From the NCBI GenBank assembly GCA_023379555.1, contig JAMCQR010000064.1, positions 1-29,740 on the forward strand: 29,740 nucleotides of DNA, given 5' to 3'. Position numbers and translations under genes: made by a program. Source of the DNA: Thermoplasmatota archaeon (GTDB lineage Archaea; Thermoplasmatota; Thermoplasmata; Thermoplasmatales; GCA-001856825). The notes under the pieces were generated by a model. It worked only from the letters and a program-made list of their open reading frames with translations. It did no database searches and had not been told where the DNA came from. Positions 1,295-26,847 of the stretch are shown here, in pieces. The stretch's first letter is position 1; each line of letters starts with the position of its first letter.

Positions 1295-1313
1295 TTTCCT
1301 ATGGGTGGTGCAA

Positions 1314-2381
1314 ATGAACATTGTGAAGGACATTCGTGCCCTCCGGCAGGATTTCATTCCTGAACAGGTACTTGCAAGGAGGGATGTCCTTCAAAAGACA
1401 GAAACTGTGTTCCGGGGAGACGGGATATCTTCAACAATCATCCTGAAAGGGAATCCAGGTACTGGCAAAACGCTCATCGCCAGATATTTGATCAAGAGCC
1501 ATCCAAATTATCACGGGTACTACGTCAATTGCTACCTCACTCCGTCTGATAGGGCAATTATATCAGAATTGATAACCGGTGGAACCTTCAGGGGAGATCT
1601 ACAGTCAGCCGGGATGGAAAGGTTGACAAGATTACTTATGGACAGTCTTCCCCAAGACCGAAATTTCATCGTTCTCGACGAAGCTCAGAGCCTCAGAAGA
1701 TCAAATGCGTCCATCGTCTATTTATTGTCTCGGAGTTTAGAGCTGGGTGGGCCTCCAATTAAACTTATGATTTTGACAATAGAGGACCCGGAAATGTTCA
1801 TGGATAAGAGCACTCTAGCAGGAATTGGGACCCCCAAGATTGTGACCCTCCAGGAATACAACGCAGAGGAATTAAATGAAATATTGAAGCAAAGAACTGT
1901 TCTGTCTTTATATGAGGGAATGTACACGGAGAGTGCGATTTCATTGATAGCTGAGTTGAGTGAAGATACCGGAAGTGCGAGAGTAGCAATAGAGCTTTTA
2001 AACAGATCAATACAGGCGGCAGAAAGAAATGGCACCATCCTGGATGAAGCTTCGGTGTTGACGGCCTACAAGGAATTCTCCCCTCCAATAGAAGAGAATT
2101 CTCTCCTGGACCTAGAAGAATGGGAACTCGCTTTGCTCAGTAAACTTATTGAAAACAGTACGGATTCAAAATTCAGAGCGTCTGAGTTGAAATCACTGGT
2201 ACCCGATCAAAACGACTCAAGAATATACAGGTTCCTGAGACATCTGGAGAATTCAGGCTTTATAAAGAAGACAAAGGTTGGAAAGGGTTATGGAGGCGGT
2301 GTCGAAAATGAATATGTGTTCAGGATCCCGCCCAAGATGTTGGAAGAAAGAGTTAATAAAGCCCAAAAGACGATCCACTAG
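1314..2381 (+). CDS. Orc1/Cdc6-type AAA+ ATPase (first copy, atypical)
   Basis: The protein is 355 residues from the ATG at 1314; a GTG at 1305 would add three residues. I prefer 1314 because a TATA-like box sits 26 bases upstream. Counting from 1305, the Walker A motif GNPGTGKT is at 49-56 and the Walker B motif FIVLDEAQ at 121-128. A winged-helix region with a glycine-rich wing follows near residues 275-345. This matches archaeal initiator proteins that bind origin DNA and load the MCM helicase. Walker B ends in DEAQ rather than the DEID/DEVD usual in Orc1-1, and the N-terminal P-RLPHRE segment is missing. It may therefore be an Orc paralog or a regulatory ATPase. A second Orc gene lies 3 kb downstream. 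Confidence 0.8.
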   Translation: MNIVKDIRALRQDFIPEQVLARRDVLQKTETVFRGDGISSTIILKGNPGTGKTLIARYLIKSHPNYHGYYVNCYLTPSDRAIISELITGGTFRGDLQSAGMERLTRLLMDSLPQDRNFIVLDEAQSLRRSNASIVYLLSRSLELGGPPIKLMILTIEDPEMFMDKSTLAGIGTPKIVTLQEYNAEELNEILKQRTVLSLYEGMYTESAISLIAELSEDTGSARVAIELLNRSIQAAERNGTILDEASVLTAYKEFSPPIEENSLLDLEEWELALLSKLIENSTDSKFRASELKSLVPDQNDSRIYRFLRHLENSGFIKKTKVGKGYGGGVENEYVFRIPPKMLEERVNKAQKTIH

Positions 2382-2407
2382 TCAGTTATACGTAACCATT
2401 CCAAAAA

Positions 2408-2418
2408 ACTTAAATATT
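2408..2418 (+). promoter_or_regulatory. TATA-like box of the FtsZ-like gene
   Basis: ACTTAAATATT is centred about 26 bases before the ATG at 2439. This fits a leaderless archaeal transcript separate from the upstream Orc gene. Confidence 0.45.
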
Positions 2419-2438: not shown

Positions 2439-3194
2439 ATGTCAGACAAAATAAAGATAATAGGAGTAGGAGGTGCTGGCAAGAACAGCATCCCAAAGTC
2501 ATTTTCAGATAGGTCATACATTATAGCATCAAATCTTTTTCATTCTGTGGCGGAGGTCAAGCCATTTGTAGACAGTCTCCCTAAAACTGATAATACGGTC
2601 ATTGTGACTTCTCCAGCCGGCCTGTATTCATCTAAAGTCCTTCCCGAGATCTGCAGAACTTTTCACACCAGAGGGGAGAGAACATACATTGTATCAATCA
2701 TGCCGTTCAATTCAGAATCACAGGAAAGGAGAAAAAGGGCTTATGATACTTTGAAATCAGTCAAGGGATTGGTTGACTCGACTGTTTATGTCGAAAATGA
2801 AAACTTCGCCTCCTCGATGAGCGAAAGCAGGTGGGATGAGATGATTGACAGGATCAACTCAAAGATTCTATCCCTTATAAACGGATTCCTAGGATCAATC
2901 GAACTGCTCCCTCAAGTGAAGGAAATGGGCATTTATCATTCAGAGGGAAGAACCATAAATGAACTGGAGAGGAATCTTATTCTCAGTACTGGAAGACCAT
3001 CAGAGGGAATGATTGGGACTGCAGAGGTCACGAATAATGCCGACCTAGAAAGAATTACTTCGATGCTTCCGATTGAGATCTTGGAATTCAGCATCGGAAA
3101 CAACTATTCTATTTCAGGAGCTCTGCTCTATTCTCATCTGGACGCGTACGGCATTCCAGCGCACCCATCAGCACCCTATATTCATATTCATTGA
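2439..3194 (+). CDS. Divergent FtsZ/tubulin-superfamily-like protein
   Basis: A 251-residue protein. Its N-terminus, IKIIGVGGAGKNS (residues 5-17), is almost identical to the first nucleotide-binding loop of FtsZ (GVGGAGNN). Residues 85-101 (VSIMPFNSESQERRKRA) match the FtsZ strand and helix with the pattern PF..E...R...A. VDSTVYVENENF (112-123) matches the FtsZ VD..IVI.N segment. The tubulin signature GGGTGTG is absent: the equivalent place reads TSPAGLYSS (57-65). The protein is also 70-130 residues shorter than canonical FtsZ. It is likely a non-canonical member that has lost or changed GTP hydrolysis; a role in division or membrane remodelling is inference. It lies between two Orc1/Cdc6 genes, and its last 86 bases overlap the convergent TrmJ-like gene. 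Confidence 0.72.
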   Translation: MSDKIKIIGVGGAGKNSIPKSFSDRSYIIASNLFHSVAEVKPFVDSLPKTDNTVIVTSPAGLYSSKVLPEICRTFHTRGERTYIVSIMPFNSESQERRKRAYDTLKSVKGLVDSTVYVENENFASSMSESRWDEMIDRINSKILSLINGFLGSIELLPQVKEMGIYHSEGRTINELERNLILSTGRPSEGMIGTAEVTNNADLERITSMLPIEILEFSIGNNYSISGALLYSHLDAYGIPAHPSAPYIHIH

Positions 3195-3834
3195 TCAGTG
3201 CCCGTGAAATTATCCTCCTGAACATCAGGGTAGTCTTGCTGATCCTGTGTGGCGGATAGCCGTTTTGCTCTAGATTGCTTTTGAATTTGTTGATCAGCAG
3301 TTCCAGCTCTTTTCTATCTGCCACAGGTCTGGTCCCAGCATTTCCAATTGAGGCCAGTTCCTTAAGAATGATGGCAGCGGCGTGAGATACATTCATGATG
3401 GGGTATTCTTCTGAGGCAGGAATGTGGATGAAATAGTCGCACATCGATAACTCTTCGTTTGTCAATCCTATGTCCTCCCGTCCCATGACTATCCCTATCT
3501 TGCCCTTTACTCCACGGACCTTTTGTGCGAATTCAGTAGGAGTCATATGGTTCCTGACTACCCCTTTTATGGAGTCAGTTTTGACCCCGGAAGTCCCTAC
3601 AACGTATTTCAGCCCCTCGACTGCATCACCGAGACTTTTGACCAGACTTGCTTTTTTCAGTATCTCACTACCTTTCATCGACCTGAATTGGTCTTCCGGG
3701 GGTATCCTGTAAGTGTTTGTGATGTATAATTCGCCGAATCCAAAATTTTTCATTATCCTTGCTATCGATCCCAAGTTCCCTGGGTTTTTTGGCTCCACAA
3801 ATATCAACCTAAACTCTGGCACAATCGTCAACAT
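3109..3834 (-). CDS. trmJ: TrmJ-like SPOUT (SpoU) RNA 2'-O-methyltransferase
   Basis: A 241-residue protein with all three SpoU motifs: NPGNLGSIAR (17-26), GIVMGREDIGLTNEE (114-128) and IPASEEYPIMNVSHA (138-152, the knotted SAM-binding part). The length and C-terminal extension match archaeal TrmJ, which methylates the ribose of nucleotide 32 in tRNA. The exact target is inference from family. The 3' end runs 86 bases into the convergent FtsZ-like gene, so the last 28 codons are read on both strands. It is transcribed divergently from folC. Confidence 0.88.
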   Translation of the reverse strand: MLTIVPEFRLIFVEPKNPGNLGSIARIMKNFGFGELYITNTYRIPPEDQFRSMKGSEILKKASLVKSLGDAVEGLKYVVGTSGVKTDSIKGVVRNHMTPTEFAQKVRGVKGKIGIVMGREDIGLTNEELSMCDYFIHIPASEEYPIMNVSHAAAIILKELASIGNAGTRPVADRKELELLINKFKSNLEQNGYPPHRISKTTLMFRRIISRALINEYEYRVLMGALECRTRPDENRAELLK

Positions 3835-3878: not shown

Positions 3879-5174
3879 ATGGACGCAGAGCGGTTTCTGT
3901 TTTCGCTGTCAAGATTCGGAATCAAATTGGGTCTTCAGCCAACCATCAGTTTTACGCAAAAACTTGGCAATCCACAGAATTATTTCAGAAGCGTCCATGT
4001 TGGTGGGTCAAATGGGAAGGGATCAACGACCACATTCATATACAGGATACTGCAAAAGAAATATACAGCGGGCCTGTACGTTTCCCCCCACATTAGGAAT
4101 TTCACCGAAAGGATCGTTGTATCGGGTGAGGAAATTAGCTGGAATTTCATTGAGAACTTTATCAAGAGAAATAGAACGAACATAAATTTAAACGGAAACT
4201 ATGTCCAATTGACATTTTTTGAATATACGACCGCCATGGCATTTCAATATTTCAAGGACAAGAACGTAGAGTATGCCGCAATTGAAGTCGGTATGGGCGG
4301 AAGGCTTGATTCCACAAACGTGATCACTCCGGAACTGTCGGTGATTACTAGCATTTCAATGGAACACGCAGATAAACTCGGTGGAAACATTGACGACATC
4401 GCAAGAGAGAAGGGTGGGATCATCAAGAGTGAACGACCAGTTCTGCTGGGAAGGATGCCAGAACGTGCGAAAGCGGTTTTAACCAAGATAGCGGAGGGGA
4501 AAAAATCAAGAATACTCGATATAGAGCAAACGGAAATAAGCAACATTGATTTCAGGCTTGATGGCACCTCATTCAAACTCAAAACCGACAAAGACGTTTA
4601 TGACGTTAATCTGAGAGCACTTGGAAATCACCAGGTAATTAACTCCACGATGGCCATCCTGGCATATGAGGATATAGGAAATGGAATATCAAAGGAGGAT
4701 ACGATGGCTGCCATTGCTTCTGAGGGCATACCAGGGAGATTTGAGATAAGGAGGACTAATCCACTGATAGTTTTGGATGGCGCACACAATTCAGAGGCAG
4801 TTAGAACATTAGCAAGCAACGTCAAACTGTACCACATAAAGAATCCCCTGATTGTCTTGGGGATTCTTCGAGACAAGAACAGCTATAACATGCTTCAGCA
4901 GTTATCCGAAATAAGCGACAGGGTCATAGTGACTGAACCCAACGAAAGAGAGAGAAGGAAAACGCATGACCAACTTGCTAGAGAAGCATCTTTCTTCTTC
5001 AAGGATGTCGAGAAGTTCCATAAACCTGAAAGTGCGATAGATGCAGCACTCGCAGAGAACACAAATGTCATAATCACCGGCTCGCTATATCTTGTTGGAG
5101 AAGCTGAAAAAATACTGGACAGGAAATTTGGACCTAATTCTCTTCCAGTGGAAAGTACTGAAGTCAATACTTGA
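3879..5174 (+). CDS. folC: Folylpolyglutamate/dihydrofolate synthase (Mur ligase family)
   Basis: A 431-residue Mur-ligase protein of the usual FolC length. The P-loop GSNGKGST is at residues 43-50. YVSPHI and FTERI follow, as in FolC folate binding, then the central-domain segment AAIEVGMGGRLDSTN. A C-terminal ligase domain contains ILDGAHNS-like VLDGAHNSEA. It joins glutamate to dihydropteroate or folate, supplying folyl cofactors in the cytosol. The start is the ATG 24 bases downstream of the shared TATA element. The 3' end holds an origin-recognition-box-like motif (5143-5154) and leads into the candidate origin before the second Orc gene. Confidence 0.93.
   Translation: MDAERFLFSLSRFGIKLGLQPTISFTQKLGNPQNYFRSVHVGGSNGKGSTTTFIYRILQKKYTAGLYVSPHIRNFTERIVVSGEEISWNFIENFIKRNRTNINLNGNYVQLTFFEYTTAMAFQYFKDKNVEYAAIEVGMGGRLDSTNVITPELSVITSISMEHADKLGGNIDDIAREKGGIIKSERPVLLGRMPERAKAVLTKIAEGKKSRILDIEQTEISNIDFRLDGTSFKLKTDKDVYDVNLRALGNHQVINSTMAILAYEDIGNGISKEDTMAAIASEGIPGRFEIRRTNPLIVLDGAHNSEAVRTLASNVKLYHIKNPLIVLGILRDKNSYNMLQQLSEISDRVIVTEPNERERRKTHDQLAREASFFFKDVEKFHKPESAIDAALAENTNVIITGSLYLVGEAEKILDRKFGPNSLPVESTEVNT
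5143..5154 (+). promoter_or_regulatory. Origin recognition box-like motif 1
   Basis: TTCCAGTGGAAA is identical to the core of the archaeal origin recognition box bound by Orc1/Cdc6. It sits in the last codons of folC, about 170 bases upstream of the second Orc gene. The G-rich tail of the full box is not present here (GTACTG follows). Confidence 0.45.
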
Positions 5175-5310: not shown

Positions 5311-6576
5311 ATGTTAATAATGGAAAGGGAGATGCACAACTTATTCGACAGATTTCAATACAATTCAAGGATACTGAAAGGGGAGAGGAAGGCACTTGAT
5401 CCCGGCTTTGTTCCAGACCGACTTCCTCACAGAGAGAGCGAAGCCGAGAAAATTGCAGAAATACTTGTCCCTTCCCTTTCTGGGCAAAGGCCCTCAAATA
5501 TTATAATATTCGGTAAACCCGGAGTGGGAAAGACAAGCGTGATGCAATTCGTTGAAAGGGAGGCAAATAGGGTGATCGATACGAGGTTCAGTCTCAAGCT
5601 GAAAATAATTAACATTAACTGCGGAGTGATCGATAATCCTTATGGCATCCTTCTGAACATAGGAAATCACTTGCTTGGGGACTGGGAGGATAAACTTCCA
5701 TTTACTGGTTGGCCAATTGATAAGTTATTCAATGTAGTTCAGGAAAAAATAGATAATTTTGGCGGGATAGTCATTGTAGTGATGGATGAAATTGACAGAC
5801 TCGTAAAGAAGAGTGGCGATGGGGTTCTCTACCAGCTACTGAGAATTAACGAGACATCCTCCGCTGGGAAGCTATCCATTATTGGCATAAGTAATGACCT
5901 GAGATTTACAGACTACCTCGATCCAAGAGTGAAAAGCAGACTGATTGAGGAAACGCTGGTTTTCCCCCCATACAATGCAACTCAAATATATGATATACTG
6001 CGAGACAGATCATTATTCTCAGGGATACTCGACTCAACCGATGATTCCGCACTTCAGTTGTGTGCCGCCATTGCCGCGCAGGATCAGGGGGACGCAAGAA
6101 GAGCGATAGATCTCCTGAGAATTTCGGTAGAATTGGCTGAAATGAAGCAACTTGAAAAGATAAATGATGACCTCATTTATGAAGCGAAAAAGAAACTGGA
6201 GAGAGACATAGTCACCGAAACAATATCTACCCTCCCACTTCACAGCAAGATTGCATTGCTATCAATAGTGCTTCTTGATGAGATCAAAAGAGGGACCAAG
6301 ACGTCCATGGGCGAGGTGTACGATCTCTACTGCAAGGCTACTCAACGGATTGGAGTAAGCTCCCTGACTCCACGAAGGATAGCTGACATTGTGGGCGAGC
6401 TGACAAATCTTGGATTAGTAGACTCTGTCGTGCAGAGTTTCGGAAGATACGGCAGAACTACAATGATCTCTATGAATTATGATGGGGACAAGATCAAGGA
6501 ATTGCTTATGGAAGACGACTCAATTGGAATGCTTCAGGATGTGAAACCTTCACAGAAATCGCTCACTGAATCTTAA
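5311..6576 (+). CDS. orc1: Orc1/Cdc6 replication initiator (second copy, canonical)
   Basis: A 421-residue protein of typical archaeal Orc1/Cdc6 length. The N-terminal FVPDRLPHRE segment (33-42) is the family hallmark. Walker A GKPGVGKT is at 68-75, Walker B IVIVVMDEID at 153-162, sensor 1 in IGISNDLRF, and the sensor 2 region QGDARRAIDLLR follows. A winged-helix domain occupies roughly 320-405. It should bind the ORB motifs upstream and load MCM. The start could also be the ATG at 5320 or 5332. The adjoining intergenic boxes make it the likely cognate initiator of a local origin. Confidence 0.93.
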   Translation: MLIMEREMHNLFDRFQYNSRILKGERKALDPGFVPDRLPHRESEAEKIAEILVPSLSGQRPSNIIIFGKPGVGKTSVMQFVEREANRVIDTRFSLKLKIININCGVIDNPYGILLNIGNHLLGDWEDKLPFTGWPIDKLFNVVQEKIDNFGGIVIVVMDEIDRLVKKSGDGVLYQLLRINETSSAGKLSIIGISNDLRFTDYLDPRVKSRLIEETLVFPPYNATQIYDILRDRSLFSGILDSTDDSALQLCAAIAAQDQGDARRAIDLLRISVELAEMKQLEKINDDLIYEAKKKLERDIVTETISTLPLHSKIALLSIVLLDEIKRGTKTSMGEVYDLYCKATQRIGVSSLTPRRIADIVGELTNLGLVDSVVQSFGRYGRTTMISMNYDGDKIKELLMEDDSIGMLQDVKPSQKSLTES

Positions 6577-26262: not shown

Positions 26263-26565
26263 CCTTAAATATAAGTTGTTCTCTCTCGTTCTCTCACTTT
26301 TCATCATAATATAGAGAAATTTATCCTTTTCAAGTTGGAAACTATATAAACTCGAACATCGACAACTGTAGGTTCTATACCTTTTGATATAAAACATTTA
26401 CAAGAAATATTCAACACCAGGTATCCGTAACTTATACAAAATGTGTGATGCTGCCCATCAATTTTCATGAAGTTAATAGACAACCCTTTATAGGTTGCAA
26501 AAGATGTATATTTTTGATAGAAGAAGATGTGCCTGTCATATCATATGCGAAGGGAGCGCTAGTGT

Positions 26566-26847
26566 GTGAGTAATGAGACCATGACTGTCTCCGAAGTGGA
26601 AGCTGCAGTAAGGCTTGTGAATAAAAGGGTGAACCAGAATGCAGGGATATTATTGAGCGCTTCAGTGGATGATCCAATGAAGGGGGCGATAAACGTGCTT
26701 GTCTTCCTGACTGGCGTAAAATCTCCCTACATGTTTGATTCAACTGGCAGCGTCTCTGAAGCAATGAAGACCACGGGACTTAAGAGACTGGACTGGAGGG
26801 TCAACATAGGTTTAAAAAACTACTACAAATTTTTGGCCTTAATTTGA
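26566..26847 (+). pseudogene. FtsZ C-terminal domain fragment
   Basis: The 93 residues match only the C-terminal domain of FtsZ. MTVSEVEAAVRLVNKRVNQ (6-24) corresponds to the helix after the FtsZ T.EEV..A strand, and VDDPMKGAINVLVFLTGV (34-51) to the near-universal D..MKG.I.VTVIATG. segment. The whole N-terminal GTPase domain (about 230 residues) and the linking helix H7 are missing; a stop (TAG, 26560) precedes the GTG. It is either a decayed ftsZ paralog or, less likely, a small stand-alone regulator of FtsZ. A tail of ~40 residues without FtsZ similarity follows. Confidence 0.7.

Follow-up and report, generated by a model that had tools for sequence, protein, structure and literature searches.

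One gene of the window, by which we mean the whole 29,740-nucleotide stretch of Thermoplasmatota archaeon DNA analysed here, was found to encode a paralogue of archaeal FtsZ, much diverged and very probably now a pseudo-GTPase, since by sequence its catalytic residues are gone and the gene is still under selection. The best overall explanation, which we judge on balance probable, is that this pseudo-GTPase FtsZ paralogue acts on the FtsZ polymer. The preliminary description of the open reading frame was borne out: GVGGAGKN, PFxxExxxRxxxA and VDSTVYVENEN were all found on it, and alignments placed TSPAGLYSS where FtsZ has GGGTGTG. The features are listed in Table 1. The nearest genome (G001), which had 86% of the sampled 31-letter words in common with the window, was used as stand-in for the source assembly.

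Table 1. Positions of the FtsZ-like gene, its parts, its promoter elements and its neighbours in the window
Feature	Position	Strand	Remarks
orc_a, Orc1/Cdc6 paralogue, direct upstream neighbour	1305..2381	+	TIGR02928, Cdc6_lid
Upstream promoter element GTTATAC	2385..2391	+	kept in 13/13
TATA-box-like TTAAATAT	2410..2417	+	starts 29 bp before ATG
TGTCATATCAATGTCTTAATAATGTCA, TGTC(A/T) repeats every 11 bp entering the start codon	2418..2444	+	sequence comparison
FtsZ-like gene, very probable pseudo-GTPase (long form)	2439..3194	+	251 aa, ATG start
T1 loop GVGGAGKN, residues 9-16	2463..2486	+	G11, A13, G14, N16 invariant in 37/37
Rewritten T4 loop TSPAGLYSSK, residues 57-66, replaces GGGTGTG	2607..2636	+	SP[AS]Gx[FY]S[SG] in 37/37
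T5 region, residues 88-98	2700..2732	+	invariant P89, F90, E93, S94, R97
T6 region VENENFA, residues 118-124	2790..2810	+	invariant N120, N122, F123
Shortened C-terminal domain without T7 NxDxxD	2907..3140	+	missing from relatives' short forms
Tail, residues 235-251, predicted disordered (pLDDT <50)	3141..3191	+	structure model
trmJ-type tRNA methyltransferase, convergent, overlaps FtsZ-like gene	3109..3834	-	profile matches
folC	3879..5174	+	NCBIfam match
orc_b, second Orc1/Cdc6	5311..6576	+	364.5 bits

The window protein matched Pfam Tubulin/FtsZ (PF00091) at E 1.3e-6 and 29.3 bits, below the gathering cut-off of 33, and NCBIfam ftsZ (TIGR00065) at E 3e-8 and 33.4 bits, short of the equivalog cut-off of 295.2; FtsZ_C (PF12327) was absent from its Pfam matches at E<=10. 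All 37 family members matched PF00091 at E<=0.01 (best 1.9e-9), and the profile-profile comparison with five canonical FtsZ proteins of the order gave a probability of 96.7 and E 3.7e-10. In a fold search, the predicted structure matched the FtsZ fold of the tubulin/FtsZ superfamily, with CetZ and FtsZ scores tied. These findings show that the FtsZ likeness exceeds chance. An unrelated Rossmann-like protein with chance motif likeness would suit the Pfam score slightly below the cut-off, but this identity is contradicted by the fold search, as well as by the alignment and the profile-profile comparison, and is hardly credible. The preliminary description would have been contradicted by a plain Rossmann oxidoreductase fold or by a protein not conserved in related genomes; the fold found was that of FtsZ and the protein is kept in related genomes (37 members; 13 genomes with the locus). 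The degenerate FtsZ that it proposed thus stands, and the role as a pseudo-GTPase partner is one that we infer.

The T1 glycine loop of FtsZ was present throughout the family. In contrast, the phosphate loop T4, GGGTG(S/T)G, was found in 0/37 members, and its replacement always contained a Phe or Tyr (37/37). G61 corresponds to the first Gly of GGGTGTG in both T4 alignments; after it the register shifts by one residue between them, and the partners of the Ser residues are uncertain. Protein length, alignment and model indicate a deletion of the FtsZ segment H2-S3-T3, which comprises loop T3 and the helix and strand that flank it. The long forms have lost the T7 motif, and the T7 domain is missing in 26 of the 37 proteins (short forms). 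Any NxDxxD between residues 131 and 220 was found in a single member (P0002, NEDLPD), approximately 15 residues before the aligned place of T7; the string was not common to the nearest kin of P0002 and is read as chance.

The nucleotide contacts of FtsZ are the Asn of T1, the Glu and Arg after PF, the Asn of T6 and the Asp of H7. E93, R97, N120 and N140 of the window protein align with the guanine and ribose contacts of FtsZ, and an Asn (N140) was found in 35/37 members where H7 of FtsZ has Asp. By these alignments, the pocket keeps its nucleoside side and has a rewritten phosphate loop. Twenty-one residues were invariant across the 37 proteins. The M and S of the invariant MSD start overlap the DNA repeat that enters the start codon and may be held by it; of the 18 invariant residues after MSD, 16 fall in pocket stretches, which cover only 38 of 153 positions (P 1.3e-9), the stretches having been set by the analyst from the secondary structure of the model. 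On this pattern the family has kept its pocket and lost the catalyst, and is not a case of decay. A nucleotide or metabolite sensor, whose pocket would bind a nucleoside or nucleotide and signal via the tail without contact to the FtsZ polymer, is unlikely, with a modest chance of being correct. The concentration of invariant residues in the pocket loops, the Asn in H7, which could shift base preference, and the terminal Asn of 20/26 short forms are consistent with it; however, the Phe or Tyr in every phosphate loop and the promoter pair common to an ftsZ, which points to division, argue against it.

The family members were found to be 173-260 aa long, compared to approximately 330-400 aa for FtsZ. 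The gene is under purifying selection, with dN/dS of 0.07-0.27 over seven pairs, of which five were saturated at silent sites and the two unsaturated ones gave 0.14. The missing catalytic parts and a broken ftsZ remnant at 26563-26844 of the same window would fit a decaying, functionless ftsZ copy, but this is contradicted by the selection, by the family-wide retention, by the 21 invariant residues and by the conserved promoter, and is very improbable. The remnant itself, on the plus strand, is a 94-aa frame with the end of a canonical FtsZ only (FtsZ_C E 3.9e-7); its tail is similar to the C-terminal peptide that the 396-aa ftsZ encodes, and it looks like a truncated copy. A contig scan found 12 loci with relatives, and a scan of viral contigs found no relative.

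Elsewhere in the order, family f3 (L095-L104 and L112) has separate FtsZ-like proteins of approximately 260 aa, with T4 as GLGGxxG[TS] in the 11 loci inspected, shortened T2/T3 and no clear T7; at L101 and L102 the gene adjoins methyltransferase-like and enolase-superfamily-like genes (by eye). Kinship with these proteins was rejected, as the tree, built without CetZ, did not join the two, and a join with L025, between long branches, was distrusted. At L110:85-1315 and L109:4316-5472, a short FtsZ-like gene is immediately preceded by a ribbon-helix-helix-like gene; GGGTG is retained in the FtsZ-like protein of L110 and lost in that of L109; Pfam gave RHH_8 below the cut-off only for L109 and no match for L110. 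The arrangement is reminiscent of the cdrS-ftsZ2 pair described in PMC7439475.

The promoter of the FtsZ-like gene has a pair of elements in common with that of one canonical ftsZ. The spacing of the TATA-like box would give a leaderless transcript. GTTATAC-N26-TGTCATA, a fixed 40 bp spanning the TATA box, was found at the FtsZ-like gene in 13/13 genomes, compared to six scattered other sites and seven for the reversed-pattern control (13 genomes; G034, without the FtsZ-like gene, was excluded). The 60 bp upstream had a mean identity of 74%, second of the nine locus genes after trmB (79%). In the promoter of the 396-aa ftsZ, too, the TATA box adjoins GTCATA, the string seen within the repeat. 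Among 14 loci inspected for this promoter, L183 and L186 were set aside as a 385-aa paralogue; in the remaining 12/12, GTCATAC directly followed the TATA box and GTTATAC lay 81-84 bp further up. By scan, the pair was found at this ftsZ in 14/14 genomes with one stray match (reversed control, 8), the open frames being 392-396 aa, or 324 in G033, where the frame is cut. With seven and eight matches in the reversed controls (13 and 14 genomes), single sites mean nothing. Start to start, the elements are 34 bp apart at the FtsZ-like gene vs 81-84 bp at the 396-aa ftsZ. Intermediate spacings of 34-62 gave 15 scattered sites, fewer than the control; one was the FtsZ-like promoter, two were already known from the 40-bp scan and one recurred, only in the close relatives G031 and G036. 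The spacing scans used the right-hand patterns TGTCATA, GTCATA and GTCATAC, exact matches and one element order.

Neither element was found in 14 upstream stretches of the 337-344-aa ftsZ or in five of the third ftsZ paralogue, so that at most one of the three FtsZ genes has the pair. The pair was absent from sepF promoters, with GTTATAC alone in 3/14. Within the scans, the two conserved pair sites per genome, both at FtsZ-type genes, suggest one common regulator, for which the ribbon-helix-helix-like gene next to L004 is a candidate. The shared pair is a strong lead and not proof, because the elements are short and their spacing differs between the two genes. Scanning seven genomes for TGTCATAWYAATGTCA with up to two mismatches gave mostly scattered sites; of the eight loci inspected, no gene begins behind the site that recurs in four genomes, and the one recurring in two genomes enters the start of a membrane-protein-like frame. 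ATANNGTCATA was rejected as a regulon marker, as its frequency was about that of the control and it defines no regulon alone. At G026:C1:425464-425479 (L133), GTTATACGT comes immediately after TGTCATACAAATGTCA, a leucyl-aminopeptidase-like frame (by eye) lies downstream, and the first part of this site recurs at G036:C11:54405. The 337-aa ftsZ (e.g. L167, L168) has another box, AATTTGTCAAA[GT]TGGTA, after the TATA box in several genomes by eye, and seems to be under different control.

The nine-gene order, aldo-keto reductase (-), orc_a, ftsZ-like, trmJ (-), folC, orc_b, kinase-like, guaA-like (-) and trmB (-), with the outer names assigned by eye, was the same wherever the contig reached (11/13 loci whole, 2 cut). 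The FtsZ-like protein and orc_a were the most diverged of the nine products; orc_a scored 108.4 bits with TIGR02928 against a cut-off of 181.3, and Cdc6_lid was above its cut-off. Of the two Orc1/Cdc6 genes said to flank the FtsZ-like gene, orc_a is indeed directly upstream, but orc_b comes after trmJ and folC and so is not adjacent. On the other side, the last 86 bp of the FtsZ-like gene (3109-3194) are antisense to trmJ, and this overlap may be what keeps the tails of the long forms alike.

The proposed conservation of the orc-ftsZ-like order held in 13/13 genomes with the gene (one orc_a is cut by the contig end), but within one family only. The two genes stay immediately adjacent also at loci where an insert of 1.1-2.7 kb lies on the other side, the insert being a PALP enzyme gene in both loci inspected of eight such loci. 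In contrast, at 17 wider orc_a loci (approximately 30% identity, elsewhere in the order), no FtsZ-like gene was found within approximately 1.5 kb on each side. The orc_a linkage is real and local to one family, and its function is unproven. This position is what speaks for the nucleoid/division coordinator of the preliminary description, in which the FtsZ-like protein would bind or be governed by Orc1/Cdc6 and couple origin firing to ring assembly. However, conservation of the whole nine-gene order makes proximity weakly informative on function, the wider loci are without an FtsZ-like neighbour, and each gene apparently has its own promoter: GTTATAC and GTCATA were absent by eye from 11 upstream regions of orc_a (a twelfth row of the set, L040, is orc_b and was excluded). 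We consider coupling through Orc1/Cdc6 improbable.

Canonical FtsZ over the cut-off numbered three (13 genomes) or four (one) in 14/15 genomes of family f1, plus one SepF. ESCRT-III was found in 0/15, with a model that gave only sub-cut-off matches in Sulfolobus as well. A division system of two FtsZ plus SepF has been described for archaea (available part of PMC7613921).

A division role is favored because of the promoter pair common to the FtsZ-like gene and the canonical ftsZ, and we lean toward a modulator of the FtsZ ring. The FtsZ-like protein would be expressed together with the 396-aa FtsZ and would act on FtsZ polymer via the nucleotide (top) face. Within an FtsZ filament, each nucleotide site is closed by the T7 face of the adjoining subunit. 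A nucleotide face without T7, or without the T7 domain, would accept one neighbour and never complete the next site, which leads us to prefer capping or dilution of filaments by an inactive FtsZ: it may dock on the T7-exposed filament end, so that growth is stopped or tuned, or co-assemble as an inactive subunit. Capping or co-assembly would be the likeliest modes because the nucleotide face is the most conserved and, in short forms, the sole assembly face. End-capping as the specific mode is tentative, and capping by a missing T7 face fits the long form less, as the C-terminal domain is kept there. More speculative still is a dedicated filament cap made from a duplicated FtsZ without GTPase parts (in one branch without the T7 domain); it would be switched on jointly with a canonical FtsZ and encoded next to a replication initiator, a position that would let the cell cycle set limits to ring growth.

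The protein shares with archaeal FtsZ (TIGR00065), which occurs in the same cells, the fold, the T1 loop, PFxxExxxR and the T6 Asn; unlike it, the family has no GGGTGTG, T3 or T7 NxDxxD in place, and the window protein has no FtsZ_C match. CetZ (3zid, 4b45, 4b46) binds GDP and GTPgS according to PDB titles, whereas the family is without the phosphate loop. SulA and MciZ bind one end of FtsZ filaments and are not known to be homologous to FtsZ. The fold-search matches included the FtsZ complexes 1ofu and 4u39, which we take to be those of SulA and MciZ; the end-binding mode proposed here would be alike, with the cap made from FtsZ itself. To our knowledge, pseudoenzyme partners are familiar for kinases and hardly for FtsZ. 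In the available part of Makarova and Koonin 2010 (PMC2875224), some archaeal FtsZ paralogues are already reported without functional motifs, and FtsZl1 and FtsZl2, likewise non-canonical FtsZ-like proteins with altered regions, keep GGGTG(S/T)G and have a large C-terminal addition (coiled coil plus helical domain, or approximately 300 aa); on that account, the window family, with GGGTG in 0/37 and 173-260 aa, is the reverse, short and loop-less. The FtsZ/tubulin family has also been surveyed (PMC9871819, in part). Among the matches listed from the open literature, as titles and abstract openings with few subscription papers, the family, the replacement motif and the orc and promoter links were undescribed.

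A natural FtsZ that selection maintains in a form cut down to the nucleotide-face domain is a ready probe of the function of each FtsZ face, and offers a lead to division-ring control in acidophilic archaea whose genomes encode three or four canonical FtsZ paralogues.
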